From the IMG/VR virus record IMGVR_UViG_3300022074_000121, positions 1 through 39,842 of that record: DNA of 39,842 bases, one strand, 5' to 3'. This document shows, piece by piece, positions 4,632 to 31,364 of the stretch (positions are counted from its first letter, which is position 1; each line of letters begins with the position of its first letter). This DNA comes from a virus. The notes beneath the pieces were generated by a model. It did no database searches. It was not told the origin of the DNA and saw only the letters and a program-made list of their open reading frames with translations. The translations under genes were made by a program, and so were the position numbers.

Positions 4632-4632
4632 T

Positions 4633-5076: not shown

Positions 5077-5088
5077 AATTGTTTATTA

Positions 5089-6329: not shown

Positions 6330-6356
6330 TGTTTTTTCTAAAAAATTCCTTATACT
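6329..6356 (+). promoter_or_regulatory. Probable promoter for the SSB-like gene
   Basis: TTGTTT (6329-6334), 16-bp spacer, TATACT (6351-6356). The ATG of the SSB-like gene is at 6378, giving a leader of roughly 14 nt without a Shine-Dalgarno sequence. A second possible -10, TATTAT at 6367-6372, lies 5 nt before the ATG but has no good -35. Confidence 0.45.
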
Positions 6357-6377
6357 CTTTTAGAGATATTATCAGTT

Positions 6378-6986: not shown

Positions 6987-7015
6987 TAATAATAGATTTG
7001 TAAAACTCTGAGTCT

Positions 7016-10074: not shown

Positions 10075-10080
10075 GTAAAA

Positions 10081-10188
10081 TTGAAATTTAAAATAGCACA
10101 GATGCTCATAGATTATTATGACATAGAAGAGGAAGAGGCTATGTTAATGGCTCAAGATATTTTAAAACTTATAAAAGAAGAAGTATGA
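10081..10188 (+). CDS. Small acidic-helical ORF, coupled to next gene
   Basis: 35 aa from a TTG at 10081, or 28 aa from the ATG at 10102. The sequence is an amphipathic, acidic helix (IDYYDIEEEEAMLMAQDILK). Its stop overlaps the next start as ATGA (10185-10188), the same junction used by real genes here, which is the main support. Function unknown. Confidence 0.45.
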   Translation: MKFKIAQMLIDYYDIEEEEAMLMAQDILKLIKEEV

Positions 10189-12027: not shown

Positions 12028-12112
12028 TATTTCTTCAAATTATCCTGTTGACAGATTGGGTGAACCCAACTATAATGGTCGAAAAGATTACATATTAGAT
12101 TGGTGGAAATGA
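11996..12112 (+). CDS. Small ORF coupled to gmd
   Basis: 38 aa. It starts inside the end of the GT90-like gene in the +2 frame and ends with TGA overlapping the gmd ATG (12109-12112), a coupling junction. The C-terminal part, YPVDRLGEPNYNGRKDYILD, has good codon character and aromatic content and looks like protein rather than spacer. It has no recognisable domain. It may be a displaced C-terminus of the preceding enzyme or an independent small protein. Confidence 0.4.
   Translation: MFFQHTNKQDNISSNYPVDRLGEPNYNGRKDYILDWWK
12048..12076 (+). promoter_or_regulatory. Perfect consensus sigma-70 promoter upstream of gmd
   Basis: TTGACA (12048-12053), 17-bp spacer, TATAAT (12071-12076), an exact consensus. 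The ATG of gmd lies 32 nt past the -10, giving a leader of about 25 nt. It falls inside the 38-aa ORF, so it may be a genuine internal promoter for gmd and the recombination/replication genes or a coincidence of coding sequence. Confidence 0.55.
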
Positions 12113-13158
12113 AGAAAGTTTTGATTACAGGGGTAACAGGTCAAGATGGTTCGTTGATGGCAGACTATCTTTTGAATAATACTGATAATATAGTTGTTGG
12201 CGGCATTCGACGCTTGAGCGTTAAGAATCATAAGAATATCGAACATCTTGCAGATAATGATAGATTCAAACTTATTGACCTTGATGTAGCAGATCAAATT
12301 AACGTAGAAAACGTTATACAAGAAGAAAAGCCTGATTATTTTATTAACTTCGCTGCAAATTCTTTTGTAGGTAATAGTTGGGATATGCCAGTTAATCATA
12401 TGATGACTAACGCTATGGCTGTATTATATCAGTTAGATGCAATTAGAAAGTATGTGCCTGATTGCAGATATTACAACGCTGGATCTAGTGAGCAATTTGG
12501 TGATGTAGATTACTCGCCTCAAGATATAGAACATCCATTCAAACCCCGTTCTCCATATGGGGTTTCTAAATGCGCGGCTCATCATTTGATAAAAGTCTGG
12601 AGGGAGAGTTACAATATTTATGCGGTTCAAGGCATACTTTTTAATCACGAAGGAGTTCGTCGTGGAGAAGAGTTTGTAACCCGTAAAATATCCAAAGCTG
12701 TAGCAGACATATCTAAAGCTTTAGAAAAGGGATATCCAATCAAAAGATTAGAGCTTGGAAATCTCGATGCAAAACGGGATTGGTCTGATGCAGAGGATTT
12801 TATGGACGGTGTTTGGAAAATGTTAAATCAGAACCAAACAAACGGTTTGCCAAAGGATTATGTTTTGGCCTCTGGACAAACAAATACTATTCGATCTTTC
12901 GTAGAAGAAGCTTTTTGGGCTGCGGGTATAAAATATTGTTCTTGGCGTGGAGAAGGTATTGAGGAAACTTATTGTCTTACTAAAGACGATGGTGAAGAAA
13001 TGATTGTGGTCAGCATAAATCCAAAATTTTACAGACCAGCAGAGGTAGAATTACTACTTGGAAATTCTATGCCAGCAAGAAAAGAATTAGATTGGCAACC
13101 AAAAACACACTTTAAAAATTTAGTTCGTAAAATGGTAGAAAGCGATCTAAATGGCTAA
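12109..13158 (+). CDS. gmd: GDP-mannose 4,6-dehydratase
   Basis: 349 aa, normal family length. It converts GDP-D-mannose to GDP-4-keto-6-deoxymannose with bound NADP, the first step to GDP-fucose, GDP-rhamnose or GDP-perosamine. The Rossmann GxxGxxG appears as ITGVTGQDGSL at the N-terminus. The catalytic set is present: GSSEQFG near residue 125, the Tyr-Lys pair in SPYGVSK, LFNHEGVRRGEEFVTRKI in place of the family LFNHESPRRGExFVTRKI, GNLDAKRDW and RPAEVELLLGN. A TTG upstream at 12100 is possible, but the ATG at 12109 overlaps the preceding TGA and is preferred. No GDP-sugar epimerase/reductase or aminotransferase is seen here, so the final sugar depends on host or other phage genes. Confidence 0.92.
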   Translation: MKKVLITGVTGQDGSLMADYLLNNTDNIVVGGIRRLSVKNHKNIEHLADNDRFKLIDLDVADQINVENVIQEEKPDYFINFAANSFVGNSWDMPVNHMMTNAMAVLYQLDAIRKYVPDCRYYNAGSSEQFGDVDYSPQDIEHPFKPRSPYGVSKCAAHHLIKVWRESYNIYAVQGILFNHEGVRRGEEFVTRKISKAVADISKALEKGYPIKRLELGNLDAKRDWSDAEDFMDGVWKMLNQNQTNGLPKDYVLASGQTNTIRSFVEEAFWAAGIKYCSWRGEGIEETYCLTKDDGEEMIVVSINPKFYRPAEVELLLGNSMPARKELDWQPKTHFKNLVRKMVESDLNG

Positions 13159-13486: not shown

Positions 13487-14609
13487 GGTAAAAGAAGCAG
13501 AAGTTGGCCTATCTAAAGATCAGGAGTTTACAGAAAAGTATTTTAATTCTAACAAAGAATTACATACAAACTTTGAAGAGTTTAGAGGCGACTATAAAAT
13601 TTCAACAGGTTCTAAGATTTTTGATCTAGCTGTTGATGGTGGACTGCAATCTGGATTGGTTCGTTTTGTAGGCCCAACAGAAGGGGGTAAAACATCTGAG
13701 GCTCTTGAGATTCAAGCAAATTATCTTGAATCTTTGGAAAACTCCAAAGGTATATTTGTCTTGGCAGAAGGGCGGCTTTCAGATAAGATGAAAGAAAGGA
13801 GTCGATCAACATTCGTTTATCATCCGAAAGATTGGGTAAACGGAACAGTTTTGGTTTTTGAGTGCAATATTTATGAAACTGTTTTTGATTGGCTGCGTGA
13901 GTTAGTTACCAAACATTCTGATAAGACTCGCTATTGTATTATCATTGACAGCATGGATGGGCTTCTACCAGAAGCAGCTTTAAAAAAGTCAACTTCAGAT
14001 GCAGCTAAGATTGCTGCCGGTGCAGTTATGACGGGCGACTTTCTTAGAAGGACAAATGGTTACATGGCTAAACGTGGACACTTGTGCATTATGATGGGAC
14101 AAGTTCGTGCTGAGATCAAAGGCCAATATGAAGCTAAAGATAAAAACAAATTAGGGGGAGCGTCTGGAGGTAATGCTGCGGTTCACTATCCAGATTGGGT
14201 TTTTGAATTTCAGCGACCAAGACCTACAGAAAAAATTCTGCCCAAAGGAGCGGGAGAAGGCGAGTTGACTCTTGCTAAAAAACCGATAGGCCAATTAGCA
14301 AAAGTAAAAATCTGGAAGTCAACAAATGAAACTTCTATGATTGTGATCCAGTATCCTGTTAAGTTTGGAAGAGTAGGGAGGTCTTCAGTATGGGTGGAGA
14401 GGGAAATCGTAGACCTACTTCTTCAGTGGGGGTTCTTTGAAAAGAAAGGTTCTTGGTTTTCTTCTAGTGAAGAGTTAACTAAGAGTTTAGAACTAGAGGA
14501 ACCGATAAAGCTTCAAGGCATTGAATCTATTTATGAGCTTTTAGAGAAGGACTCAGAGCTAACAGATAAGCTCAATGAGTTCTGCGACAATAACATTTTA
14601 AATGTATGA
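13479..14609 (+). CDS. uvsX: UvsX/RecA-like recombinase
   Basis: 376 aa. Walker A is GPTEGGKT at residues 65-72 and Walker B is YCIIIDSMDGLLP near 148-160, followed by the RecA-like MMGQVRAEIKGQ (about 205-216). It would form ATP-dependent filaments on ssDNA for strand exchange, recombination-dependent replication and repair. Its length fits T4 UvsX (about 390) and RecA. It acts with the SSB-like protein and the nucleases nearby. The stop overlaps the next start by ATGA. No classic RecA N-terminal helix is evident, which fits phage UvsX-type proteins better. Confidence 0.85.
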   Translation: MSKVKEAEVGLSKDQEFTEKYFNSNKELHTNFEEFRGDYKISTGSKIFDLAVDGGLQSGLVRFVGPTEGGKTSEALEIQANYLESLENSKGIFVLAEGRLSDKMKERSRSTFVYHPKDWVNGTVLVFECNIYETVFDWLRELVTKHSDKTRYCIIIDSMDGLLPEAALKKSTSDAAKIAAGAVMTGDFLRRTNGYMAKRGHLCIMMGQVRAEIKGQYEAKDKNKLGGASGGNAAVHYPDWVFEFQRPRPTEKILPKGAGEGELTLAKKPIGQLAKVKIWKSTNETSMIVIQYPVKFGRVGRSSVWVEREIVDLLLQWGFFEKKGSWFSSSEELTKSLELEEPIKLQGIESIYELLEKDSELTDKLNEFCDNNILNV

Positions 14610-15007
14610 CTTTTAAAAGCTTGGCTGGTCGAGAGGTTAAAGTCAAAAAAAGTTATGTCTATAAAATAGATTGGCAAGGCAAATCTCTTTCAAAACTACA
14701 GAGGTCTGTAAAGAAAGAGCTTGCAAAATATTGGGAAGCTGATATAGTTTATGAAGAGTTTCCTGTAGCTGGCACAAGATTGAATTTTGATTTTTATAAT
14801 GCTACAAAAAATATTGTATTAGAGGTGGATGGACACCAGCATTATAGATATAATAAATTCTTTCATGGTCAAAACAGGTTCAACTTTTTGCAGCAACTCA
14901 AAAGAGATAACGATAAAGAAAAATTTTGTGACCTTAACGGGATCAAATTACATAGGGTAAGAGAGGGAGAAGACTACAAACAGGTCTTGTCTGAATTAGA
15001 TTTATGA
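14606..15007 (+). CDS. Vsr/DUF559-like PD-(D/E)XK nuclease
   Basis: 133 aa. RLNFDFYNATKNIVLEVDGH (about residues 58-77) gives the D...ExDGxxH core shared by Vsr-like and DUF559 nucleases, followed by the RDNDKEKFCDLNGIKLHRV block that packs on the active site. It would nick or cut DNA, with a specificity that is not readable. It is locked by 4-nt overlaps between uvsX and the next gene. A role in recombination, mismatch processing or branched-DNA cleavage is inferred from context. Confidence 0.75.
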   Translation: MTFKSLAGREVKVKKSYVYKIDWQGKSLSKLQRSVKKELAKYWEADIVYEEFPVAGTRLNFDFYNATKNIVLEVDGHQHYRYNKFFHGQNRFNFLQQLKRDNDKEKFCDLNGIKLHRVREGEDYKQVLSELDL

Positions 15008-15291
15008 AAGACGATATTGATAATATCCAGAATGAAGCAAACACTATTCCAGAGGTGCAGCTTACAAAATTGTTCGACAGAACAGGAAGCAATTATGGAG
15101 GCAACAAAGGCTTTATTCTTTTTTATATCAATGAACAAGGCAACCCATTTGCAGTTATGAAGTTTGAAAATAATGCTGTAAGATTCGCCTTGGAAAAATC
15201 AGTTGATATGTTTAAACTTTCTATGGAACAATCAGAGTGGATGGGTAGTATTGGAATTGACGTTGACGAGGAAGGAGACTCTAACAAATGA
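15004..15291 (+). CDS. Hypothetical protein between nuclease and helicase
   Basis: 95 aa, acidic at both ends. The middle is a compact alternating beta/helix stretch (GFILFYINEQGNPFAVMKFE). No known family recognised. ATGA overlaps on both sides tie it to the nuclease and the helicase, so co-translation is very likely. Confidence 0.6.
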   Translation: MKDDIDNIQNEANTIPEVQLTKLFDRTGSNYGGNKGFILFYINEQGNPFAVMKFENNAVRFALEKSVDMFKLSMEQSEWMGSIGIDVDEEGDSNK

Positions 15292-16826
15292 TAAAAAGTT
15301 TTGAATTAGAAAAGAAAGTAATCTCTGGCATATTGCAGCATCAAGAGGTTTGGGGTCAGGTTTCTAACATTTTAACTGACGAGGACTTTTATTTTGAGGA
15401 CTCAAAAGTAAACGTTACCATTTTTAGAATGCTTAAATCTGCACTAGACAATGCAGAATCTATTGACGAAACGATTTTAATTTATCGTGTCAAACAGTTA
15501 GGGATGACCTTTCCTGACTCCATTGACATCACTGATTACATCCAGAATCTTACCTTTATGAAGGTAACAGCAGATAACTTTTTATCTTCTGTCAGAGAGT
15601 TGAAGAAAGTATCCATTAGGAGAGAGGGTTTCAATATCGCTGAAAAACTTCAGAAATATGTAAAGAAAGCAGACCCATCAATGCCATACAATCAACTGGT
15701 TGACGGTATGGATAAAATTTACAACGATGGAGTATCAGCTTTTGAAATGGGTGATGAAAAGCTTGTCAATCTAGCCGACATTGCAGAAGAGATTGTCGAG
15801 GACAGGGGAGACAATCCTCCAGAAGAAGTCGGTCTTATGGGACCATATCAGACACTAAATAAAATTTACGGGTCTTTGGTCAGAGCGGGAAATATTACCT
15901 GTGTAGCAGCAAGGGCGAAAGTTGGAAAAACATCTCTGTTGATAGATATGTTATTGAAAATCTCATATGAACATGGAGTTCCGATTTTGCACTTCGACAA
16001 TGGAGAGATGAGCGAAGAAGAGCTTGTTTTCCGCATGGTTTCTGGAGCTTCTGGAATCCCTGTTCATTTACTTGAAAGCGGCAAGTGGAGGCATACCGCT
16101 TATAGAGATTGGACAGCACAAGAAGTCGTAGAGCGGGTTCGCAATGTTTGGGATAAAATGAAGAAGATCAAAATTCTTTACCACAATGTTGCCGGTATGA
16201 GTTCCGACGAAATGTGTTCGCTTCTCAAGAGATATTACTACAGTGATGTGGGCAGGGGTAATCCTTTAATCTTTTCTTTTGATTACTTGAAAACAGATTT
16301 TGGAAATCTTGATAAAGGTGCTGGTTGGGCTTTTGTGGGTAAGACTCTGCATGATTTCAAACAGCTTATTAGTAGAGAATTAAAATTCGATGGCAATCCT
16401 TGTGTTGCTATGGTGACTTCTGTTCAAACAAACAGATTAGGGATCACAAATAATAGGGACTCTGATTCTATTGTTGAAGATGAATCTGTCATTGGATTGT
16501 CAGACAACATTATTCAGTTTGTCTCTCATCTTTTCCTTCTTAGAAAGAAAACAATAGATGAAAGGGTGACAGAAGGCGACCACTTTGGCACTCATAAACT
16601 AATTTGCTTGGCTGCTAGACACTTGGGAGAGGATGCCTTTGGACACTTAGAGCCTGTGGAAGATATAGAAGGTAATAACAGAAATAACTTTGTGAACTTA
16701 GAGTTTTCTAACTTCAATGTAGAGGACAGGGGCGATCTAAGAGATATTGTCAGAAATGCGAGGGGCGAAGACATCTCTGTAAATGACGAAGCACAAGACA
16801 ACGGATTGCCAGAAGGTTTTGATTAG
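15288..16826 (+). CDS. dnaB: Replicative DNA helicase, DnaB family
   Basis: 512 aa, near the normal length of about 450-500. The N-terminal all-helical domain (residues 1-150, starting SFELEKKVISGIL) matches the primase-interacting DnaB-N. The C-terminal RecA-like motor has Walker A ARAKVGKT (208-215), the LHFDNGEMSEEELVFRMVS segment (motif H1a region), and FSFDYLKTD as the Walker B-like strand. The hexamer would unwind the fork 5'-3' using ATP. It precedes the primase gene by 11 nt. The tail from about 490 is acidic and unlike host DnaB. Confidence 0.88.
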   Translation: MIKSFELEKKVISGILQHQEVWGQVSNILTDEDFYFEDSKVNVTIFRMLKSALDNAESIDETILIYRVKQLGMTFPDSIDITDYIQNLTFMKVTADNFLSSVRELKKVSIRREGFNIAEKLQKYVKKADPSMPYNQLVDGMDKIYNDGVSAFEMGDEKLVNLADIAEEIVEDRGDNPPEEVGLMGPYQTLNKIYGSLVRAGNITCVAARAKVGKTSLLIDMLLKISYEHGVPILHFDNGEMSEEELVFRMVSGASGIPVHLLESGKWRHTAYRDWTAQEVVERVRNVWDKMKKIKILYHNVAGMSSDEMCSLLKRYYYSDVGRGNPLIFSFDYLKTDFGNLDKGAGWAFVGKTLHDFKQLISRELKFDGNPCVAMVTSVQTNRLGITNNRDSDSIVEDESVIGLSDNIIQFVSHLFLLRKKTIDERVTEGDHFGTHKLICLAARHLGEDAFGHLEPVEDIEGNNRNNFVNLEFSNFNVEDRGDLRDIVRNARGEDISVNDEAQDNGLPEGFD

Positions 16827-16837
16827 AATTTTAATTT

Positions 16838-17872
16838 ATGATTGATAGAGCTTCTATTTTAAGAGAAATAGGATACAACCTTGAAGATAGAGGCACTTAT
16901 TGGCAAACCAGTGCAATCTTTAGGGATGGAGATAATAAAACCGCTCTAAGGATTTACAAAGACTCTGGAGTATGGAGCGATTTTGTAGAAGGCAACAAGC
17001 CTTTGCCATTTGAAATACTGCTTAAAAAAACTTTAAATACAAATGATGTCTCTAAATATTTAAGTGGCTCTACTTCATTCACAACAAATAACAAAAAGGA
17101 ATTTTTGAAAGAAGAAAAAACATTCCCAAACTCAAGTCTGCAAAAACTCTTGCCAGATTACTCTTTTTATACAAAAAGAGGTATTTCCGTCGATGTTCTA
17201 AAAGAATATAAATCAGGTCTTGCAAGTAGCGGGAAGTTTTATCAGAGGGTCGTTTTTCCCATCCACAGAGAAGATGGGCGTATTCATGGGTTTTCCGGTA
17301 GATTGGGTTACGAAGCACCAGAGGACGATGCTAGACCAAAGTGGCTTCATTATGGCAAAAGTGCAGATTGGTTCTACCCTTTCTTTTCTTTAGAAGGCGT
17401 TGCAGATCAAATCATAAAGGATGATTCAATTTTCGTCATCGAAAGCATTGGTGATTCTTTGGCTATGACCCAAGAGGGCATGAGAAACCATATGGTCGCT
17501 TTCACAAATGTTCTAAATACAAGACAAGTATCCCGTCTAGCGACTTTAAATACTAATATTATATTAGCGTTCAATAACGACGAGGGACAAAACAGGGGCT
17601 TTGATGGAGCTTTGTCTTCATGCTTGAAGCTCATGGATCAAGTAGATTTGGAGAAAATTTGGTTCTACCCACCTCCAGCAGAAGATTTTGGAGAAATAAT
17701 TAAAAATGGCGGTAATTTAACAGAATACAAAGAAAACTTGAATTTAAATTCAGATTTTCACAAAGATTGCATAAAGAGGTTGATAGATTATGCGCCTAAC
17801 GCTAAGATACCTAAAGTCTTACGCGCTAAAGTTCCTAAATTGAAAGAACAATGGAATTTTTTGTATCAATGA
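16838..17872 (+). CDS. dnaG: DnaG-like TOPRIM primase lacking zinc cysteines
   Basis: 344 aa. YQRVVFPIHREDGRIHGFSG (about residues 134-153) is the RNA polymerase basic-domain motif of DnaG. The TOPRIM domain follows: FVIESIGDSLAM (about 196-207) keeps the catalytic Glu and Asp, and IILAFNNDEGQ (about 234-244) takes the place of the DxD strand but has Asn where the first Asp is usual. The N-terminal segment aligns with the zinc-binding domain region yet has no Cys. It should make RNA primers for the polymerase, with template recognition changed from host DnaG. No SD is visible before the ATG. Confidence 0.72.
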   Translation: MIDRASILREIGYNLEDRGTYWQTSAIFRDGDNKTALRIYKDSGVWSDFVEGNKPLPFEILLKKTLNTNDVSKYLSGSTSFTTNNKKEFLKEEKTFPNSSLQKLLPDYSFYTKRGISVDVLKEYKSGLASSGKFYQRVVFPIHREDGRIHGFSGRLGYEAPEDDARPKWLHYGKSADWFYPFFSLEGVADQIIKDDSIFVIESIGDSLAMTQEGMRNHMVAFTNVLNTRQVSRLATLNTNIILAFNNDEGQNRGFDGALSSCLKLMDQVDLEKIWFYPPPAEDFGEIIKNGGNLTEYKENLNLNSDFHKDCIKRLIDYAPNAKIPKVLRAKVPKLKEQWNFLYQ

Positions 17873-17882: not shown

Positions 17883-19076
17883 ATGAGTAAACCTATTAAG
17901 GCTTTATCTGCAAGTAGAATAAAAACTTTGGATTCGTGTAGTTGGATTTATTGGTGCAACTATCATTTAAAACTTCCAGATCAGCAGAACAGCGGGTCTA
18001 TCATGGGAAGTGCGCTGCACAATGTTTATGAGTGTTTGGGCAACCCTAGACACAAAAAGTTATATAAGCAGTTAGTAAAGGGGCAATGTATGGAATCATG
18101 CCCCGTTGTGCATAGATACCTTTCTTCTTATATTACAAGCAGAGGCTTAACATTAGAAGAGTTCGGCCCAATCTTGGACAAGATGTTGATTGAAGGAATC
18201 AACTATGACTTTTTCGGAGAGCAAAAATTAAACGCAAAGCCAAGCGAATCTTTTTCTGAAATAGATTTCAATATTGAAAAAGTAGAAGGAGATATCTCTT
18301 ATCGAATCAGAGGCTTTATTGACAAATTGTTCTTGTTCAAAGACAAGAAAGAGTCAATTATTCGTGACTTCAAAAGCTCTAAAAGAAAATTTGAGGGTAA
18401 AGAGTTTATTGATAATGTTCAAGACTTGATGTATAGACTTGCTCAGTGGCATTTGTATCCAGAATATCTGGTCAAGAGAATGGAGTTTGTGTTTATGCAA
18501 TACGACTGTTCGGGCGAGGAATACGGTAGGACAGAAGAAGAGGAGAAGAAAAGGTTAAAAGAAAAAGGAAGCTCTCTTGATATTGATTACAGCGATGCTG
18601 GTGTGATTATTACGCCAGATGTATCGGCGGCAGAGCTAAAGGGCTTCGAATATTACCTTACTGACGTTCAAAGGGTCGTTGATAATTTTAATGAAGATTT
18701 AGCAAGGGACAACTTTGCAAAAGACAAAGGCTACCCCGACAAATATTACGGGTTCTCAGGTCAACTTATCTGTGGTAGAGCAGATTCGCCTACACATAAG
18801 AAAAAAGATGGTTCTATTATGTGGGGTTGTCAGTATAAATTTGCCAAATTTTATTGGGTTCTCTTAGACAAAGATAATTGTGTTGTGAAAACCGCAAACA
18901 TCAAAAGAGAATTACCCAAACCGTTGAAAGGGCAGAAGGTAGAAAGGCGACTGTATGAAGGATGCCCACGTTATAATTTCTTAGATTACAACAAAAATTT
19001 TATTAGCAAAGCACAAAACAAAGGCTTCGAAGTAGAAGCAAAGAAACCACTTGACCATACAGAGGATTTGTGGTAG
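17883..19076 (+). CDS. RecB/Cas4-like PD-(D/E)XK nuclease
   Basis: 397 aa. It opens with LSASRIKTLDSCSWIYWCN, the N-terminal motif of the RecB-type nuclease family (Q/S-x-S...C), then GSIMGSALHNVYE (residues about 39-51). The active site is RGFIDKLFLF (about 141-150) followed by SIIRDFKSSKR, giving GxxD and DxK. It would be a 5'-3' or 3'-5' DNA exonuclease that processes ends for recombination. Extra Cys at N-terminal CSWIYWC and in the last third (ICGRAD, GCQYKF, GCPRY) could bind an iron-sulfur cluster as in Cas4/AddB, but spacing is not canonical. The start follows an AAGGAG site. Confidence 0.78.
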   Translation: MSKPIKALSASRIKTLDSCSWIYWCNYHLKLPDQQNSGSIMGSALHNVYECLGNPRHKKLYKQLVKGQCMESCPVVHRYLSSYITSRGLTLEEFGPILDKMLIEGINYDFFGEQKLNAKPSESFSEIDFNIEKVEGDISYRIRGFIDKLFLFKDKKESIIRDFKSSKRKFEGKEFIDNVQDLMYRLAQWHLYPEYLVKRMEFVFMQYDCSGEEYGRTEEEEKKRLKEKGSSLDIDYSDAGVIITPDVSAAELKGFEYYLTDVQRVVDNFNEDLARDNFAKDKGYPDKYYGFSGQLICGRADSPTHKKKDGSIMWGCQYKFAKFYWVLLDKDNCVVKTANIKRELPKPLKGQKVERRLYEGCPRYNFLDYNKNFISKAQNKGFEVEAKKPLDHTEDLW

Positions 19077-19086
19077 TATCCCCTAA

Positions 19087-19764
19087 ATGATCCCTTTATT
19101 TAAATCACATTTTTCAATGGACGGGCGTTCAAGTTTATCTATAGAAGACATTTTCGAGATTGGTGAAGATTTAGATGAAATCGTTCTTGTAGAAGATACT
19201 ATGGCTGGTTTTAGAAAAGCCAAGCAAAAGTCTCTTGAATTAGAGAAGCCATTGCGCTTCGGGCTGAGAATAGAAAGCAAATTATGCGGAGACTCTAGCA
19301 AGCTCGTCTTCTTCGCAAAGAATAATCAAGGCATTGATACTTTACGAAGAATTTACACAAATGCTTTTACAGGAGAAGACAAAGTATTCAAGATTGGAGA
19401 AGTTCGTTTAGATGGAGTCCAAGTTGCAGTTCCTTTCTATGACTCGTTTATACATAGGAGCTTACATAATTTTGGTGATTTTGGCCTAAATTTACCTGAT
19501 GATACTGTTTTCTTTGAAGAAAATAATAAACATCCCTTTGACTATCAAATTTCAAAGGCTATAAAAAAATGGACAGATAAAGCTGTGCCAGTAAAGTCTA
19601 TCCTTTACAAAAATAAGGACGATTTCTCTTCTTTTCAGTGGTATAAGTCTGTCTGCAACAGAAGGCAAGGTAAGGCTCCAGAATTTCACAATCCTAATCT
19701 AGAAGATTTTTGTAGTGATGAATTTTGTTGGGAAAGTTATCAAAAACAAAATAAGATATGCTAA
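19087..19764 (+). CDS. DNA polymerase III alpha PHP-domain protein, degenerate
   Basis: 225 aa. Its start, LFKSHFSMDGRSSLSIEDIF, aligns with the PHP domain opening of bacterial DnaE (HxHSEYSLLDG...I.DLV), and its end, HNPNLEDFCSDEFCWESY, aligns with the last PHP helix (HFCSxEEM). Metal ligands are largely lost: the HxH is KSH, the TDHG loop reads VEDTM, and GCE reads GLR. It is probably a structural PHP domain with no phosphoesterase activity. It is followed, in order, by the exonuclease and the catalytic polymerase genes and overlaps the exonuclease by 7 nt. It likely binds back to the polymerase to form an alpha-like complex. Confidence 0.75.
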   Translation: MIPLFKSHFSMDGRSSLSIEDIFEIGEDLDEIVLVEDTMAGFRKAKQKSLELEKPLRFGLRIESKLCGDSSKLVFFAKNNQGIDTLRRIYTNAFTGEDKVFKIGEVRLDGVQVAVPFYDSFIHRSLHNFGDFGLNLPDDTVFFEENNKHPFDYQISKAIKKWTDKAVPVKSILYKNKDDFSSFQWYKSVCNRRQGKAPEFHNPNLEDFCSDEFCWESYQKQNKIC

Positions 19765-20378
19765 AGTTTGATCAACTGTATTTTCTTTTCGATACCGAAA
19801 CTGAAGGATTAAATCACAAGTCTTCACGACCTTGGGAAGTATCTTTTGTCATCGGTAAGGGTAATTACATAGTCGAGAAAAAACAGATTTACATTGATTG
19901 GCCTGACTTGGAGTTATCTAGCAAGATCAAAAAACTTACCGGCTTCGATCAAAGTAAATACGATAGAGAAAAAATCCCCCCAAAAGAAGCTTTTGAAATA
20001 CTTAAAAAGTATTTATATAATAAAAAGTATATGATAGTAGGCCAAAACATCATAGGGTTTGATGTATATATTCTTGCTATTCTTTCTGAGCTATGTGGAG
20101 AACCAATAACCGATTTTTCTTTTATGGATAGACTGCTTGACACTCGTTGTCTTTCCACCGCTCACAAAGAAGGCTTGGAGAAACCTAGAAATGGAGACTT
20201 GCTTAGTTGGCAATATAAGTTAAGAAACGATAGAACTCTAAAAGCCAAAGTTAGCCAAGGGGTTATGTTAAAATATTTTGGTATTGAACACGATCCTACC
20301 AAGCTCCATGATGGACTCTATGATAGCGAAAAATGTTGGGAGTTGTTTAAGTGTCTTAGAAAAGCCTTAGAATTATAA
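19758..20378 (+). CDS. dnaQ: DnaQ-like 3'-5' proofreading exonuclease
   Basis: 206 aa. Exo I is FDTETEG (Asp12, Glu14), Exo II is VGQNIIGFDVYIL (about 95-107) with NxxxFD, and Exo III is HDGLYDSEK (about 184-192), giving a complete DEDDh set. It would remove misincorporated bases for the polymerase encoded next. It lacks the clamp-binding QLxLF-type motif seen in E. coli epsilon, so it may contact the PHP or palm directly. Its location between the PHP gene and the catalytic gene is unusual and mirrors PolC, where the exonuclease sits within PHP. Confidence 0.85.
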   Translation: MLKFDQLYFLFDTETEGLNHKSSRPWEVSFVIGKGNYIVEKKQIYIDWPDLELSSKIKKLTGFDQSKYDREKIPPKEAFEILKKYLYNKKYMIVGQNIIGFDVYILAILSELCGEPITDFSFMDRLLDTRCLSTAHKEGLEKPRNGDLLSWQYKLRNDRTLKAKVSQGVMLKYFGIEHDPTKLHDGLYDSEKCWELFKCLRKALEL

Positions 20379-20382
20379 ATAC

Positions 20383-22914
20383 ATGTTTGATGATTTTAAA
20401 ATATACGATGATTGTGAACCCGCTGGTCTTGAGCTTCCCACGATCCAGCTAGAACCAGATTTGCTTTCCGATCTACAACTTACAAAAGAATGTGGATCAA
20501 AAGAAGTCTTGTCAGCTTTGTCAGAAAAAGGTTTTAACGATAGAGGGATCAGCGACCTCCCCAATAAACAGGAATATAGGGATAGACTTGAGTATGAGCT
20601 AAATACTTTTGAAGAGCTTGGCTTTACAGATTACATTCTTTTGAATTGGGAGGTTATTGGAAGAGCTAGAGAAAGCGGATACCCCGTGGGCGACGGGCGT
20701 GGCAGTGGAGCCGGTAGCCTTGTTCTTTTTCTTTTGGGCGTAACCAACCAAGATCCAATAGAACACAATCTATTCTTTGAAAGATTTGTTTCTAAAAACA
20801 GAGCTAAAAAAATTACAGATAAACACGGCAAAGAGTTTCTTGTTGGCTCTCTGGCTCCAGACGTTGATTCAGATATTTCTCACGACACTAGAGGCAAAGT
20901 TGTCGAGTTTATTGAAAAAAAACACAAGGGTCGAACTTCTAAAATCCTTACATTCAATACTTTTTCATCTAAGCTCTGTATCAAAGAAGCGGCAAAATAT
21001 TTTTATTCTATTGACGAAGAAGAGGCTACTAAGATTAGTGATATGATACCAAAAGAACATGGTATTGTCATGTCTCTAAAAAAAGCCCGTGAAGAAAGCG
21101 AGCCTTTTGACAATTGGTGTTCAGATCATCCGAAGGCTATCAAAGCTGCATTGAAGATAGAAGGCTTAAATAAAAACACAGGTGTTCACCCATCTGGCAT
21201 AGCAATTTGTTCGCAAGCGATTGATAATGTTGTCCCATTGCAAAGAACTAAGGATGGCGATCTTGTTTCTGGCTACGACATGAATGATGTAGCCGACTTG
21301 ATGGTTAAGTTTGATATCTTAGGCTTGAGAACTTTATCTATTGCCGATAGAACTTGTAAGAAAATAGGTATTAGCTTTGACGATATTGATCCTAACGACC
21401 CATTTATTTATCAAGTATTGCAAGATTTCAATCATCCTTGTGGACTGTTTCAAATCTCTGCTGACACAAACTTTGAAGTAGCAAGAAAAGTTAAGCCAAT
21501 GAATCTGCAAGAGTTGTCAGATGTTGTGGCGTTAGCGCGACCGGCTGCATTGCAATTTGTAGATGATTACATCCAACAAAAACTCTTACCAGAGAAGCTT
21601 GGTTATAATGACCAACTAGATGAAATTTTAGCTTCGTCAAAAAATGTTATGCTCTACCAAGAGCAGACAATGAAAGCCTGTCACGAAGTTTTTGGGATGA
21701 GCTTGGATGATGCAGAAACGCTAAGACGCGACATTGGTAAAAAGAAAGTAGAAGAAATACCGAAGTGGCAGAACAGAATTTTTGAAGCCGCAGAGAAAAA
21801 TGGAATCAGCGAAGAGGCCGCACAATACTTTTGGGACGTTGTTGAAGCGGGTGCTTCATATCAGTTCAACCTATCTCACAGTATTTGTTATGGCGCACTC
21901 GCAGCCAAGACTGTTTGGTTAAAATACAAATATCCTCAAGAATTCTTTACGTCTATTCTAGAAATTTCTGAATTTGAACAAGACCCGCTGGAAGTGGTTG
22001 CAGAAGTTAACAGGGAACTTCCTTCTTTTAATATTAGATTACTGCCGCCCAACTTAGAGCAGTCTTCTATCGACTTTACGATTGAAGATGGGAATATTCG
22101 TTATGGTCTTAAATCAATAAAAGGCGTTTCTGATAATACCAAAAAAGCATTGGAAGAATTTGTAACTTTAGAACCTAAGAACAAATACGATGTATTCGCT
22201 TACGCAAGGCAGTGTGGGATTAACATAGGTGTTCTTAGCTCTTTAATCTACGCTGGCGCTTTAGGAGATGACAACAGGGCTAAGAAAGCTTTAGAGGCAC
22301 AAGCATATAATAAGCTAACAGAAGCGCAGCAGAGGAACTTGTATAAGCTAGGCGAAAAGTATAAGTATGATCTGCTCTTTTCTATTAAAGATGTAGTAGA
22401 AAAAGAAACAAAGGGCGACAATAATCGTGTGATAATGTCGCAAAAGAACTTCGATAACTTCAAGAAAAAGTTTGAGCCTTACAAAGAGCTTTACATTTTA
22501 AATAGGAAACAAGGTAGGCTTTCTTTGTGGTGGTTTGAAAAAGAATTGTTAGGTTATAGCTTTTCATTCAACCTAATAGATTGTTTTAATCAGTCTGGTG
22601 ACTTGATTAACGTAGAAGAGTTTAAGAGTGAAACTCCAGATAGTTGGCGTATGGTTTGTCAGGTAGACGATTTTTTTATTAAAATCAGCCAAAATGGTAA
22701 TAGATACATGAGGATGTCTTTATCCGACGATAGCGCAAAGGTTGATATGATTTTTTGTGACTCTCCTAGAGAAGAAAAGTTGACAAACTTCTTAAATCAG
22801 CATAAAATAGATAAGAAGGATATTGTTGTGATCCAAGGTAGCGGGAAATGGATAAGTAGAATAAACCCTATTGATGCCAAAGTCTATACAAAGACACGAC
22901 AGCTAAAAGGATAG
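20383..22914 (+). CDS. dnaE: DNA polymerase III alpha catalytic subunit without PHP
   Basis: 843 aa. This is a C-family replicative polymerase. GDGRGSGAGS (103-112) is the palm motif GPGRGSAAGS; PDVDSDI (159-165) holds the two catalytic aspartates (D160, D162), and ARPAALQFVDDY carries the third. Further markers are NTGVHPSGIAI, GLFQIS, MLYQEQTMKACHEVFG, RRDIGKKK and YQFNLSHSICYGALAAKTVW. The PHP domain is absent and encoded at 19087. The C-terminal third has a short HhH-like region and an OB-like segment (MVCQVDDFFIKI..MRMSL). It would be the phage replicase. At 843 aa it is shorter than host alpha (about 1160), consistent with the missing PHP. Confidence 0.9.
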   Translation: MFDDFKIYDDCEPAGLELPTIQLEPDLLSDLQLTKECGSKEVLSALSEKGFNDRGISDLPNKQEYRDRLEYELNTFEELGFTDYILLNWEVIGRARESGYPVGDGRGSGAGSLVLFLLGVTNQDPIEHNLFFERFVSKNRAKKITDKHGKEFLVGSLAPDVDSDISHDTRGKVVEFIEKKHKGRTSKILTFNTFSSKLCIKEAAKYFYSIDEEEATKISDMIPKEHGIVMSLKKAREESEPFDNWCSDHPKAIKAALKIEGLNKNTGVHPSGIAICSQAIDNVVPLQRTKDGDLVSGYDMNDVADLMVKFDILGLRTLSIADRTCKKIGISFDDIDPNDPFIYQVLQDFNHPCGLFQISADTNFEVARKVKPMNLQELSDVVALARPAALQFVDDYIQQKLLPEKLGYNDQLDEILASSKNVMLYQEQTMKACHEVFGMSLDDAETLRRDIGKKKVEEIPKWQNRIFEAAEKNGISEEAAQYFWDVVEAGASYQFNLSHSICYGALAAKTVWLKYKYPQEFFTSILEISEFEQDPLEVVAEVNRELPSFNIRLLPPNLEQSSIDFTIEDGNIRYGLKSIKGVSDNTKKALEEFVTLEPKNKYDVFAYARQCGINIGVLSSLIYAGALGDDNRAKKALEAQAYNKLTEAQQRNLYKLGEKYKYDLLFSIKDVVEKETKGDNNRVIMSQKNFDNFKKKFEPYKELYILNRKQGRLSLWWFEKELLGYSFSFNLIDCFNQSGDLINVEEFKSETPDSWRMVCQVDDFFIKISQNGNRYMRMSLSDDSAKVDMIFCDSPREEKLTNFLNQHKIDKKDIVVIQGSGKWISRINPIDAKVYTKTRQLKG

Positions 22915-22915
22915 T

Positions 22916-25012
22916 ATGCAGAACTCAAAAGACTTAGATCATGTTCTAAATCGTTGCTCAGAAAGAGCTAAAGTTTTGAATAGACCATATGTTTGTCTAG
23001 ACATACTTTTCAATGAATTAATAAATAGCAGATGTGCTTCTGTTGAATCTATTTTTCGGGCCTTGGGCTTGGACGTTTTGGAGATAGCTTTAGTTTCTGT
23101 ATTGTATTGTGCAGAGAAGAAGACTTCCAAAAACCCTTCTGGAAAATTTAACAGTGACTGTAAAGATTTGTTTGACCGTATGGAAGAACTTAGGGTCGAA
23201 TTAGAGCAAGAAGATAATACTCCAGAATTACTTTTATTAGCTTTTTTCTGTTTCGACAAAAAAAGCAATGTCATTAAATTCTTCGAAGAAGCTGGATTAA
23301 ATTTCGAGACAGCAAGATCGCAAACACAGTCTTTCATAACGGATTGTCCATTTATAAAAACAAACTTTTTTGATCATAAAGAGCTTTCTGATTTAGAGAT
23401 AGAAGAAAGCGAGGAAGAAAAAGAAGAAAAAAGTATTCTCGATCCGCTGAAGCCTAATCCGATTTTGGATAAAGTGGCAACTAATTTAAATCAAAAGGCT
23501 TTCGTAGGAGAGTTTGATTCTTTGATACCGTTTGAGGAAAAAATCAATGAGGTCATAGTGACTTTATGTAGACAGAAAAAACCTAATGCAATTCTTGTAG
23601 GTGCTGCTGGTGGAGGTAAAACCAGCATTGTAGAATCTCTGGCGAAACAGATTATGGACAAAGAGGTTCCAGAGATATTAGAAGATATGGTTATCTTTGA
23701 GCTACAATTGTCTAGTATTGTTGCAGGGACAAAATACAGGGGAGAATTTGAAGGAAAACTAGAAGCTTTCTTAAAAGAAGTTACAAAGTATGACAACGTA
23801 ATTATTTTTATTGATGAGATACATACTTTAGTTGGTGCTGGTGGAACTGGAACACAAAACGATCTAGATGCGTCTAATATTCTAAAGCCGATGCTGGCAA
23901 GAGGTGATATTAAATGCATTGGTGCTACCACCCATTACGAATATGAACAAAAAATCAAAACTGATCCAGCTTTGGACAGGCGTTTTGAGAAAGTTGTTGT
24001 GGTTCCACCTACAAGATCAAGGGTAGAGAAAATTCTTCCTGATTTGATATCTTTTTACACAAAATTTCACAAGGTAAAATATACAGATATTTTTACTACA
24101 AAAGTTTTAGACTATTGCGATAAGTTTTTACCTAACAGGGTATATCCTGATAAGCTGATTGATGCTTTAGATCATTGTGCGGCATCTGCTAAAATAAAAG
24201 GTGCAAAATCGGTATCACAGCCTGAGCTAAAAGCTTTTTTTGGCAAGAAGCGCGGTATCATTTCAGATACAGACACTATCAATGACTTGATCAAAGATTT
24301 GAATGAAAATCTCATAGGTCACACTGAGGATTTTAAAACCTTTAAGAACTCGCTGCGTAGCCTATCGTCAAGACCGTCAGAATTCAAGAATGCACACCCA
24401 CCATTCTTTCTTTTTTATGGTTCGGGCCAAACTGGAAAGACATCTTTGATTAATATTATAGAACAGTATGCGAAAGGGCAAGATGTAGCCACATTCAGAA
24501 CCAATGGAAGAAACTTGACAGAAACTCAATGGGTGACTGGATTTCACGACAAGGCTTATTCTATTAGTCAAAATGTAGCATTATTGAATGTTTCCTTGGT
24601 TCTGATTGATGATTTCGACAAAGCTGCTGTAAAAGCGCAAGAAGCGGTGTTGCAAATCGCAAGAGAAAATGAAATCACAATGACTAATGGGGATACTGTT
24701 GATTTTTCCAATACTATCTTCATCTTAACGACAGGTCAAAAATCTAAACCCAAACATCTTGGCTTTAGTGAAGGCGGCGAAAATGAAGCTCTGCCAATTT
24801 TAGACGATGCCTTGAAAAATTTCTGCTTTGAACAAATTAATTTAAAGACCATTTCAAAGCGAGATTTGAAGACTTTGCTAACAAAAAGATTAAAAATATC
24901 CCCATTTATTAAGGATTTTGATAAAGTCAATGAAATAATCAAAGATAATTTTGATAAAAAAGATTTTATTCGTGTTTCTAAAAAAGAACTAGAAAAAATT
25001 ATTTTTAAATAG
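22916..25012 (+). CDS. ClpA/ClpB-like double AAA+ protein
   Basis: 698 aa. A Clp-N-like repeat region (1-140) is followed by an acidic linker, then D1 with Walker A GAAGGGKT (229-236), pore loop GTKYRGEFEG, Walker B VIIFIDEIHTLVGAGG and arginine-finger region DPALDRRFEKV. D2 has Walker A GSGQTGKT (502-509) and Walker B LVLIDDFDKA (561-570), but the usual GYVG pore loop is replaced by TEEQWVTG-like residues (NLTETQWVTG). No IGL-type ClpP loop is seen. It could remodel protein complexes; its place 1 nt after the polymerase gene suggests replisome or virion-assembly work. Whether it partners a protease is unknown. Confidence 0.8.
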   Translation: MQNSKDLDHVLNRCSERAKVLNRPYVCLDILFNELINSRCASVESIFRALGLDVLEIALVSVLYCAEKKTSKNPSGKFNSDCKDLFDRMEELRVELEQEDNTPELLLLAFFCFDKKSNVIKFFEEAGLNFETARSQTQSFITDCPFIKTNFFDHKELSDLEIEESEEEKEEKSILDPLKPNPILDKVATNLNQKAFVGEFDSLIPFEEKINEVIVTLCRQKKPNAILVGAAGGGKTSIVESLAKQIMDKEVPEILEDMVIFELQLSSIVAGTKYRGEFEGKLEAFLKEVTKYDNVIIFIDEIHTLVGAGGTGTQNDLDASNILKPMLARGDIKCIGATTHYEYEQKIKTDPALDRRFEKVVVVPPTRSRVEKILPDLISFYTKFHKVKYTDIFTTKVLDYCDKFLPNRVYPDKLIDALDHCAASAKIKGAKSVSQPELKAFFGKKRGIISDTDTINDLIKDLNENLIGHTEDFKTFKNSLRSLSSRPSEFKNAHPPFFLFYGSGQTGKTSLINIIEQYAKGQDVATFRTNGRNLTETQWVTGFHDKAYSISQNVALLNVSLVLIDDFDKAAVKAQEAVLQIARENEITMTNGDTVDFSNTIFILTTGQKSKPKHLGFSEGGENEALPILDDALKNFCFEQINLKTISKRDLKTLLTKRLKISPFIKDFDKVNEIIKDNFDKKDFIRVSKKELEKIIFK

Positions 25013-27516: not shown

Positions 27517-29433
27517 ATGGCGGGTGGAGTTTACAATTTAGTCCTTGGAGCAGATGATATAAATGACGCTGTTTCTGGAGCCTTTCAAGCCCTTAGAAGC
27601 GATGAAGGATATACTGGTGATATTAATATTAATGGCACTGGCTCATTCGATCTTTTAAATACTCAGTTTTTAGCTGCGGCACAAAACATCAATGTTACTG
27701 GTCATTTAATAGTAAATGACAATATTACAGGGCTTGGAGAAGCGAACTTCAACGATTTTATTGCAACAGGAACCTCCTTATTGTCCAACGTGACAGGTAA
27801 TGCAAATTTTGATCAAATAACTGCCACAGGATCTACAGACCTTGCTTCTTTAATTAACGGAGTTAATATTGTTGGTGATGTAAGTCATAGCGGAAACTAT
27901 ACGAATACTGGTGGATTTGGATTGATTGGCTCTGTTAATATCACTGGTAACACCAATATCACTGGTGACGCAAGTATTAACGGAACTTTATTTGTAAATG
28001 GAACTGCGATAACAGGGGAAAATAATTTAAACATTACAATTACGGGTAATGGAACGGGTGGTCTTAACTTTTTTGAAGAAGAATATCAAGAAATTTCATC
28101 CAGCCGAGGGGCATCTTTGATACATAGCACAGGGGTCGGAGTGGAAGGAACTGTTGCAAATCCAACCAGTATTGATTTTTCGATAAACGCAAAGGGTAAT
28201 GGAGCATATGTCATTAACTCTCCCGATGTAGCAGGGCATAGAGCAGGGCTTGGGAATAAAGCCATTGATTTTCAACCAGAAAGAGATGATGGTGCATTAG
28301 TGCTTGAAAAAACTTATGCAACAAAGGGTATAACTGTAGGTTCAAACAATGTAAATTATTCAAAAGAAGGTGTTATAATAGGCAACAGAAATACACTTGA
28401 TATTGGAGATGACGGTGGGGCTGGAGACTATAGCACCTATGATTTTATAGGTAATTTCATTGGAGGAAGGCAGAATCATGTTGAAAACGGAAACGAAGTA
28501 AATGTTATAGGGGCAAATAACACTGGAACTGCGTTCAACTCGGCTGGTGGGGTATCTGATAGTAGTATCGTTGGTAGGTATAACTTGATTAGTGGAATTT
28601 CTACCTGCTCTATTAGTAATACATTTATTGGTGGTAATAATAACCAAATAACTGGAGACTCTGCTACGATCTATAACTCTAGTGCAATTGGTCGCGAAAA
28701 CACCGTATCAAGACATAACTCTACCGCCATTGGTTATGCAAATATTGTGTCCGGTCCTGATTCTACCGCTGTTGGTCGCGAAAATAACGTATCAGGCACT
28801 GACTCTGCCGCTGTTGGTCGCGAAAATAATGTGTCAAACACTGACAATATCGCTTTTGGTCATCGAAATACTGCGTCAGGCAGTCAATCTACCGCTATTG
28901 GTAGCGAAAATAATTCGTCAGGCAGTAAATCTACCGCTATTGGTGATGAAAATACTGCGTCAGGCAATAAATCTACCGCAATGGGAGTGGCTTCTTTAGC
29001 AAACAAATTTGGTCAAATATCTTTAAGCAATGGTAAATTTGATTCAATTGGAGACTCTCAAACATCAATATTTGTTTCTAGATGTTTAACAACCAATGAT
29101 GTTGAAACAGAGGTCTTCTTAGATAATTCCAGCGAGAGGATTACTGTCGCCAATAATTCTGCAATCGCATTCGAAACTTTAATTGTAGCAACACAATCGT
29201 CAAGCTCAAATTCTGCTGGATATAAAATCTCAGGAGTTATTTCCAACAACGGAGGAACAACTGCTTTAGTGGGTTCTATAACAAAAAGTGTTTTAGGAGA
29301 AAGCGTTGCTACTTGGGACGCGACAGTTGAGGCAGACGATACGAATGATGCCCTTGTTATAAAGGTTACAGGAACGGCGGGAAATGATATTAGATGGGTC
29401 GCAACAACGACTACTTCTGAGGTTGTTTTTTAA
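27517..29433 (+). CDS. Large trimeric fibre/adhesin with YadA-type head repeats
   Basis: 638 aa. The N-terminal 180 residues contain repeated NITG/GDINITG beta units (VNITGNTNITGDASINGTLF) typical of beta-helical fibre shafts. Residues about 385-492 hold 14-residue repeats with the pattern S-T-A-I-G-x-E-N-x-x-S-G, the YadA head (left-handed beta-roll) signature. The last 130 residues are a compact beta domain (VETEVFLDNSSERITVANNS), probably a receptor-binding or trimerisation end. It would be a homotrimer on the tail or baseplate that binds the host surface. Related in style to the minus-strand protein at 5292. Confidence 0.75.
   Translation: MAGGVYNLVLGADDINDAVSGAFQALRSDEGYTGDININGTGSFDLLNTQFLAAAQNINVTGHLIVNDNITGLGEANFNDFIATGTSLLSNVTGNANFDQITATGSTDLASLINGVNIVGDVSHSGNYTNTGGFGLIGSVNITGNTNITGDASINGTLFVNGTAITGENNLNITITGNGTGGLNFFEEEYQEISSSRGASLIHSTGVGVEGTVANPTSIDFSINAKGNGAYVINSPDVAGHRAGLGNKAIDFQPERDDGALVLEKTYATKGITVGSNNVNYSKEGVIIGNRNTLDIGDDGGAGDYSTYDFIGNFIGGRQNHVENGNEVNVIGANNTGTAFNSAGGVSDSSIVGRYNLISGISTCSISNTFIGGNNNQITGDSATIYNSSAIGRENTVSRHNSTAIGYANIVSGPDSTAVGRENNVSGTDSAAVGRENNVSNTDNIAFGHRNTASGSQSTAIGSENNSSGSKSTAIGDENTASGNKSTAMGVASLANKFGQISLSNGKFDSIGDSQTSIFVSRCLTTNDVETEVFLDNSSERITVANNSAIAFETLIVATQSSSSNSAGYKISGVISNNGGTTALVGSITKSVLGESVATWDATVEADDTNDALVIKVTGTAGNDIRWVATTTTSEVVF
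28678..28992 (+). repeat. Seven tandem 42-bp repeats encoding YadA-like head units
   Basis: Successive 42-nt units each encode about STAIGxENxxSGxx. The middle units share TCTACCGCT, TTGGT, GAAAAT and TCAGGCA at fixed spacing, whereas flanking units are more diverged. Recombination between units could change fibre length. Confidence 0.8.
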
Positions 29434-29456: not shown

Positions 29457-31364
29457 ATGAACTATGTTTTCTTGGGCGATTCGCCCACGTTAGAAACGGG
29501 CTTTGCCCGTGTTACTAAAAATATCATTCCCAATTTAAATCTTCCCAATAAACACTTTTGGGGCATAGGTTACAGGGGGTTGCCTCATAACTATGATTTT
29601 AATATTTATTCAGCAAATATAAATTCTAGTTGGCTCGCCCCTCAAAATACAGAAAGGTTTCAACAGTTCTTACTTGCACTTGAAGGGCCAATTGTGCTTT
29701 GGTGTATTCACGATGCATTTAGATTGGCGCAATTTAAAAGTGTGTTTGAGAAGGTAAAAGAAAAAAAAGAGCTTACCATTGTAGCTTATGTTCCGATTGA
29801 TTCTTATCTTGATCAAAAAGACGAACAGTTTATTTCTACTGTAGACGTTCCAGTAGCGTATACAGAGTTTGGAGCAGAAAATATTAGAAAATTTACAGAG
29901 AAAGAGGTAAAAGTGATTCCGCATGGCAACGATCCAGATTTTAGAAAAATAGAGGGCTTTGATAGAAGCAATTATTTCCCGCACTTTCAACAAGGTATGA
30001 AGCTGATGGGCGTGGTTAATTCAAATTCGCAAAGAAAGAACCTTTTCCGTTCTTTGGAGATATTTAGAGAACTTATTATCAGAGATGATTCTTGGAGATT
30101 ATATTTACATTGTGATCCGAATGGGTTTTTTAATTTAAAAAAGATTGCAGAAGAAATGGGTATTCAGCCGTTCATAATTTATGGCGACCCATATTTTCAG
30201 TCAGGCATCATTGGAGAGACGGGTTGCAGCAAAGAAGATTTGGTTAATATATATAACTGCTTTGATCTTTTTCTTTCCACATCTTACGGAGAAGGTTGGG
30301 GCTTGACCGCTACAGAGGCAGCAAGTTGCGGAGTTCCTTTGGCTCTTCACAGAACTACAGCACATGAGGAAATTTTCGATGACGATTCATGTATTTTCTT
30401 ACCTTCTCGTAGCAAGGCTTACTACGATGATAAAATTGTAGGAGACTTAGACCCGATTGAATCAGCAGAAATAATTCACAGAGAGTTTCAAACGAGAGAC
30501 TTAAAAAATCAAACAGAAAGAGCCAAAAAAATAGTCGATTCCTTTTCTTGGGATAAAATCAATGAAACTTGGGAAGATATACTTCTACAAGCGGGTGGTC
30601 TTAAAGTAACGACACCACATAAATATTTAGTTTCATCTGGTATGAGGGTTGGCTCTACGATGCTTGGAAGTTTAGTGGCAGACATTACAGGAAAACCAAA
30701 CTCTGATTATATTTTTGTAGATAAACTTGGGTTAGATAATTTCTTTAGATATTTCCACGACCTGTCTGCTAATAAATGGTATAAAAGCCATTCTATCTTA
30801 CCAAAAGAATTTAACAAGGTGTTGAGGAAATGTGATGGGTTGAAAATTTTAAATATTATTAGAAAGCCAGAAGATGCAATGGCTAGTAGATTTTATTTCG
30901 CATACAAACATTCTCCAGACAGGGGTTCTGATAGCGATATTTTAAGAGAAATAGAGAAATGGGGCGACGAGGGCAGAGAATTGTCAGAAAAAGATATTAT
31001 TTTGCGCTCTATTGAAGAGAAAGGCGCTGTTCACAGGTGGTATGAAGAGCTAATAGCTTTTAGAGAAGAGGTGAATAATGAAAGGGTTATCACCCTAGAC
31101 TATAACAAGTTGGTTTTTGGCGATGAAGAAGAAATAAGAAGACTTTTGGGCTTTTGTGGCTCATCAATCGACGTTGACTTAATCAAGAATTGGTTTGCTG
31201 CTAGTTTTGAAAAATCCCAAAGCGATGAGATCCGAAGCACTAACAGGTCTGGAGACTCTCTCTTCTTTAGAAAAGGAGCTAACTCAAACGGTTCTGACTT
31301 GTTTGATGAAAATATTATGGAAGAGCTAAAGAAAAGTGTAAATTTAGACAATGTTCATAGATAA
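29457..31364 (+). CDS. GT4 glycosyltransferase-sulfotransferase fusion
   Basis: 635 aa from the ATG at 29457 (a TTG one codon upstream is less likely). Residues 1 to about 375 are a GT4-type enzyme: GVVNSNSQRKN (about 185-195) opens the donor lobe and STSYGEGWGLTATEAASCG (about 274-292) carries the donor-binding Glu. Residues about 388-635 look like a PAPS-dependent sulfotransferase: VSSGMRVGSTML (392-403) is the 5'-phosphosulfate loop, NIIRKPEDAMASRFYF (466-481) is the 3'-phosphate-binding Arg/Ser motif, VITLDYNKLVF and a final FFRKGANSN match the end of the fold. It could add a sugar and sulfate to one glycan. I know of no standard phage enzyme with this pairing. Confidence 0.75.
   Translation: MNYVFLGDSPTLETGFARVTKNIIPNLNLPNKHFWGIGYRGLPHNYDFNIYSANINSSWLAPQNTERFQQFLLALEGPIVLWCIHDAFRLAQFKSVFEKVKEKKELTIVAYVPIDSYLDQKDEQFISTVDVPVAYTEFGAENIRKFTEKEVKVIPHGNDPDFRKIEGFDRSNYFPHFQQGMKLMGVVNSNSQRKNLFRSLEIFRELIIRDDSWRLYLHCDPNGFFNLKKIAEEMGIQPFIIYGDPYFQSGIIGETGCSKEDLVNIYNCFDLFLSTSYGEGWGLTATEAASCGVPLALHRTTAHEEIFDDDSCIFLPSRSKAYYDDKIVGDLDPIESAEIIHREFQTRDLKNQTERAKKIVDSFSWDKINETWEDILLQAGGLKVTTPHKYLVSSGMRVGSTMLGSLVADITGKPNSDYIFVDKLGLDNFFRYFHDLSANKWYKSHSILPKEFNKVLRKCDGLKILNIIRKPEDAMASRFYFAYKHSPDRGSDSDILREIEKWGDEGRELSEKDIILRSIEEKGAVHRWYEELIAFREEVNNERVITLDYNKLVFGDEEEIRRLLGFCGSSIDVDLIKNWFAASFEKSQSDEIRSTNRSGDSLFFRKGANSNGSDLFDENIMEELKKSVNLDNVHR

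Follow-up and report, generated by a model that had tools for sequence, protein, structure and literature searches.

The PHP domain has been described as strictly conserved among the replicases of bacteria, and what it does where it is inactive is still unclear (PMC3666897). In PolC, the exonuclease is inserted within the PHP domain (PMC3919608). The alpha subunit of DNA polymerase III (Pol III) is in some lineages encoded in pieces: cyanobacterial dnaE is split into two genes joined via a split intein (PMC3919608), some jumbo phages have a minimal alpha split between the nucleoside triphosphate-binding and Mg/template-binding subdomains (PMC7824862), and Microbacterium phages of cluster EF (Krampusvirus) carry two alpha genes for what is normally expressed as one (PMC7302621; mentioned also in PMC13080520). 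Here, we analyzed a 39.8 kb virus record (IMG/VR record IMGVR_UViG_3300022074_000121, hereafter the window), in which three consecutive genes on the + strand, named PHP, EXO and POL, encode a free-standing PHP-domain protein, a DEDDh 3′-5′ exonuclease and a PHP-less C-family polymerase. An earlier note made from the sequence alone had assigned the genes in this way, and our analysis bears it out, with every coordinate right. We consider it likely that, in a clade of tailed phages, these three genes encode the polymerase for genome replication, namely a DnaE-type alpha whose PHP domain is a separate subunit, together with a separate DEDDh exonuclease.

POL is a DnaE-type core with palm, fingers, HhH and OB domains. 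It matches the Pfam families DNA_pol3_alpha (3e-59), fingers (6e-31) and HHH_6 (6e-11), and its best PDB sequence match, T. aquaticus DnaE (5.5e-85), begins well inside alpha. In a profile alignment (E 3e-112), residues 16-822 of POL correspond to E. coli alpha 276-1055, leaving the PHP part uncovered; as E. coli alpha extends to residue 1160, the tau-binding C-terminal domain is absent as well, a domain that is missing from some bacterial DnaE proteins too. The palm aspartates D162, D164 and D311, which match the catalytic triad established for E. coli alpha, are kept in 96, 91 and 96 of the 96 POL members, respectively, with N at position 164 in the other five. No conserved QxxLF-like clamp motif was seen by eye between HhH and OB in POL alignment A2, and no phage beta clamp was found in the records of 10 relatives.

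The earlier note had further seen in the locus an echo of PolC, with which it shares the company of a PHP domain, a DEDDh exonuclease and a polymerase. If the three genes were a PolC-like enzyme that had been dismantled, the order PHP-exonuclease-polymerase, which recalls PolC, and the faint likeness of EXO to a PolC-type exonuclease (E 0.24) would both be accounted for. However, POL is far closer to DnaE, its PDB matches to T. aquaticus and E. coli alpha being 1e-85 to 1e-75 compared with 2e-5 for PolC, and Foldseek with the POL model, which is too poor for interfaces, likewise separates DnaE from PolC. Moreover, POL follows the DnaE domain order, with an OB at its C-terminus and without the N-terminal domain of PolC, and EXO lies outside an intact PHP, whereas PolC is a single chain of another core family with the exonuclease inside its PHP domain. 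The echo therefore does not hold, and a dismantled PolC, already refuted by these comparisons, is barely credible.

By sequence-only search, the window PHP protein has no match in the PDB, PHROGs or annotated phages; its score against Pfam PHP (12.6 bits) is under the cut-off, and hmmsearch with family models of PHP and of EXO gave no match in fused alphas. The identification of PHP thus relies on hhalign, on structure and on the Pfam matches of its relatives. The PHP family profile aligned to the N-terminal PHP domains of 12 DnaE-type alphas (10 fused polymerases and two free Krampusvirus PHP proteins) at E 2.3e-10, compared with 0.15 or worse for all of 20 column-shuffled controls and with 0.4 and 0.5 for POL and EXO. 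For an AlphaFold model of PHP (predicted local distance difference test score, pLDDT, 76; predicted TM score, pTM, 0.77), the 11 highest-ranking PDB structures are all bacterial DnaE alphas, at TM 0.65-0.70 and a best E of 3.5e-8, followed by PolC and M. tuberculosis DnaE, and the best viral matches of the model were phage alphas as well. In addition, PHP homologues in four relatives exceed the Pfam PHP cut-off (up to 37.9 vs 26.4 bits). The possibility that this protein shows no PHP fold, which the earlier note had named as fatal to its reading, thus fell away, and together profile and model indicate that PHP is a degenerate yet genuine DnaE-type PHP domain. Across the family, the metal motif HxH is replaced by K-x-H/T/Q/N and the first PHP metal ligands are gone, suggesting that PHP is probably no nuclease and that the free protein is probably non-catalytic, as is the PHP domain in E. 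coli alpha. The PHP proteins of relatives are 33-57% identical to that of the window, and the ratio of nonsynonymous to synonymous substitution rates (dN/dS), computable for nine pairs, lies at 0.024-0.080, a mark of strong purifying selection which argues that the protein is functional.

The break between PHP and POL falls at the PHP/palm join. PHP residues 6-217 correspond to E. coli alpha 12-242, such that the protein spans nearly the whole domain, and the break lies between residue 242, the end of PHP, and residue 276, the start of POL; the two pieces do match the flanks of the normal join, as had been proposed. In E. coli, alpha 1-270 is a well-behaved soluble fragment with full exonuclease binding, and 1-255 is insoluble (PMC3642679). 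The phage break lies at about the same place as the end of the 1-270 fragment, on the basis of which we propose a three-subunit replicase. Its parts, a DnaE-type core, a degenerate PHP and a separate DEDDh exonuclease, are those that make up the Pol III core of E. coli (DnaE alpha with DnaQ epsilon), and the boundary matches the epsilon-binding fragment of alpha (PMC3642679); in E. coli, however, PHP and palm are one chain, while the phage EXO has no tail and the phage POL no tau-binding domain.

EXO matches Pfam RNase_T (2e-8), and 91-92 of the 92 family members retain its active-site residues D12, E14, D102, H184 and D189. As all five DEDDh residues are kept, EXO should be catalytically active. 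The exonuclease domain (residues 11-197 of 206) fills the protein, with neither an epsilon-like C-terminal tail for binding the alpha PHP nor a clamp motif. In a tree of bacterial DnaQ-like proteins with limited sampling, EXO clusters with the N-terminal exonuclease domain of Bacteroidota DnaE1, with support slightly below the strong mark (ultrafast bootstrap 93; Shimodaira-Hasegawa-like approximate likelihood ratio test, SH-aLRT, 89), and hhalign aligns the two at 1.8e-14. This domain, closer to EXO than anything else sampled, is fused in DnaE1, which is one chain in the order Exo-PHP-Pol, unlike the phage genes. A descent of POL from Bacteroidota DnaE1 was rejected, POL not being sister to it in the polymerase tree.

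To place the window among related loci, we used scans of viral contigs and bacterial genomes (three metagenome-assembled genome, MAG, contigs). PHP, EXO and POL are all present in 93 loci with distinct PHP sequences, the window and 92 others, which make up 69 PHP clusters at 90% identity. PHP fused to POL was not found in any clade member scanned, and the split clade is one group in the polymerase tree (SH-aLRT 99; 100 in a reduced set); among the sequences sampled, PHP and polymerase are fused in bacterial DnaE and in most of the other phage alphas. An error of sequencing, for which the earlier note had allowed together with fused homologues, or of assembly, breaking up a gene that is normally fused, would be suggested only by the rarity of the arrangement; the same order in 93 distinct loci on many contigs shows that it is neither chance nor error, and this explanation, already refuted, has a negligible probability. 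All three genes persist despite inserts or rearrangements in L016, L017, L070, L071, L107 and L115. LAGLIDADG-type homing-endonuclease-like frames, recognized by motif only, lie between PHP and EXO in L016 (6486-7397) and L115 (7743-8540), and a TnpB/transposase-like frame (1262-2443) does so in L070, a Bacteriovorax MAG contig. PHP is kilobases away from the other two genes in L017 and L071, and in L017 it lies 4.9 kb upstream of EXO, ahead of the helicase gene.

Given that the genes overlap or almost touch (EXO and POL are 4 nt apart), and that split inteins are known in the family from L115, the parts might end up covalently linked, whether through programmed frameshifting, read-through or protein trans-splicing. 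However, the frame of EXO relative to PHP varies, with 61, 25 and 7 of the 93 loci in the three classes, which excludes a conserved frameshift fusion, and the distance between PHP and EXO in L017 also speaks against joining. Furthermore, Pfam detected no intein domain in the window proteins, in contrast to L115, which served as a positive control. We regard covalent joining as very improbable.

Other alphas are broken in different ways. In L115, POL is itself in two genes (9121-9753 and 9829-12198), cut at the palm motif GRG/SAAGS by a naturally split intein whose IntN and IntC are recognizable, with Pfam Intein_splicing and Hint sub-threshold; alpha is thus four genes. In L019 (9734-12675) and L025 (9761-12693), distant virus alphas with a PHP domain are apparently broken by a split intein, their halves lying about 900 bp apart (CLDPNTFVETDRG... 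/ ...GNGIATSN SHAYSYAK). The alpha of Cellulophaga phage phiST (L049) is cut in the palm into overlapping frames of 526 and 677 aa (3912-5489 and 5482-7512), with no obvious intein, and GenBank has no coding sequence annotated there.

Among the described systems, the Krampusvirus phages RikSengupta and JDawG likewise encode PHP (344-345 aa) and a PHP-less polymerase (751-766 aa) in adjacent genes, but no exonuclease lies between the two and their PHP is well conserved, with HxH present. Their alphas group with fused Pbunavirus-type alphas in the polymerase tree, and a common origin of their split and that of the present clade, tested as one clade, was rejected (approximately unbiased test, p-AU 7.4e-5). 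These comparisons show that the PHP/palm join was broken at least two times in phages; by analogy, the Krampusvirus split at the same place suggests that the halves may be able to function unlinked. An exonuclease gene adjoining the polymerase gene is common. In Pbunavirus and Wifcevirus it directly precedes a fused polymerase, and the present clade differs in having PHP on the exonuclease's other side. The split alpha of jumbo phages is also made of separate polypeptides, but it is cut at another site, includes no PHP or exonuclease and accompanies a family B polymerase (PMC7824862), while cyanobacterial alpha, which also comes from two genes, depends on the intein joining not found in the window proteins. 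The earlier note had held that an alpha assembled from parts, with proofreading in between, would be unusual; for the split itself, Krampusvirus and jumbo phages offer precedents. We conclude that the locus is a conserved variant of a split C-family replicase, previously undescribed within the literature searched, and not a new kind of enzyme.

In the model that we propose, POL would carry out DNA synthesis, and the degenerate PHP would dock on the palm without a covalent link, through the same interface as in fused alphas, where it would stabilize the palm and offer EXO a platform close to the primer terminus. Proofreading, of which a dead PHP would be incapable, would fall to EXO, and the gene overlap and near-contact would favor balanced co-expression. 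Loss of PHP metal ligands accompanies a separate exonuclease in a published trend (PMC3666897), which a dead PHP with a separate EXO would fit. PHP integrity also influences the stability and activity of Pol III, both of which the degenerate PHP of E. coli supports (PMC3666897). We infer from this evidence the physical assembly, the stabilization of the palm, the docking of EXO on PHP and the proofreading of POL; the earlier description of proofreading as built in between holds for the gene order, with the exonuclease gene between PHP and POL, and not beyond it.

Several points weigh on the other side. The C-terminal tail of E. coli epsilon wraps PHP and touches the clamp; EXO has no such tail and hence no tether of this kind to PHP. 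The genes may also occur together in part because they are inherited as a single replication module. Moreover, the model of POL alone is poor (pLDDT 66, palm worst, shallow alignment) and neither favors nor opposes a need for PHP. A further alternative is that the free PHP has been repurposed outside the polymerase, for example as a regulator or adaptor, with POL working without PHP and with or without EXO. Such a role would agree with the strong divergence of PHP, the loss of its metal ligands and its distant position in L017 and L071, but no complete locus is without PHP, purifying selection on it is strong, and it still covers the same residues as the fused domain; we hold this alternative to be unlikely. 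As for the proposed three-subunit replicase, PHP and EXO might constitute a detachable editing module acting in trans, with the free PHP as an exchangeable adaptor through which EXO is brought to POL. We put this forward as a doubtful though conceivable extension, and the literature searched yielded no C-family replicase arranged in this way.

The three genes belong to a replication module (Table 1) in the order RecA/UvsX-like, DnaB-like helicase, primase, PDDEXK nuclease, PHP, EXO, POL and ClpA-like AAA+, which recurs in relatives. A large terminase is present in 7/9 records of longer relatives searched, which identifies the clade as tailed phages; it is a large group, mostly uncultured. Clade contigs were binned into MAGs of Flavobacteriales (L068, L069, L293) and Bacteriovorax (L070), a weak hint of their hosts. 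Elsewhere in the window, the RuvB-like protein could be a branch-migration or clamp-loader-like ATPase, and the three glycosyltransferase-like genes and the epimerase suggest, from their sequences, that the phage may modify glycans.

Table 1. Features of the window and their coordinates
Feature	Position	Strand	Description
PHP	19087..19764	+	225 aa free-standing PHP-domain protein, E. coli alpha ~12-242
PHP end/EXO start overlap	19758..19764	+	7 nt; relative frame varies among relatives
EXO	19758..20378	+	206 aa DEDDh 3′-5′ exonuclease
POL	20383..22914	+	843 aa PHP-less C-family (DnaE-type) polymerase, E. coli alpha ~276-1055
Palm (PF07733) of POL	20509..21324	+	Aspartates at residues 162, 164, 311
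Finger domain (PF17657) of POL	21355..21804	+	Pfam
HhH domain (PF14579) of POL	22033..22272	+	Pfam
C-terminal OB-fold region of POL	22615..22872	+	OB matches weak, boundary approximate
DnaB-like helicase	15288-16826	+	Conserved neighbor, same module
Primase	16838-17872	+	Conserved neighbor, same module
PDDEXK nuclease	17883-19076	+	Conserved neighbor, same module
ClpA-like AAA+ protein	22916..25012	+	Directly 3′ of POL, kept in module
Glycosyltransferase-like gene	3543-4628		
Glycosyltransferase-like gene	7016-8902		
Nucleotide-sugar epimerase	12109-13155		
Small homing-endonuclease-like protein	14606-15007		phrog_559, phrog_9084; between RecA-like and DnaB-like genes
YadA head repeat protein	27517-29433		638 aa; repeats at 3e-17; possible adhesin or tail fiber
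Glycosyltransferase-like gene	29457-31361		
RuvB-like AAA+ protein	37726-38670		N- and C-terminal RuvB domains

The PHP domain has been thought to be permanently built into the replicase, and in this clade it probably works as a separate subunit. If PHP and EXO were indeed a detachable module, proofreading and polymerase stability could be regulated or exchanged apart from the catalytic chain. As a natural system with a separate PHP, in which this protein can be added or omitted, the phage replicase would allow a direct measure of what PHP contributes to polymerase stability, activity and exonuclease recruitment.

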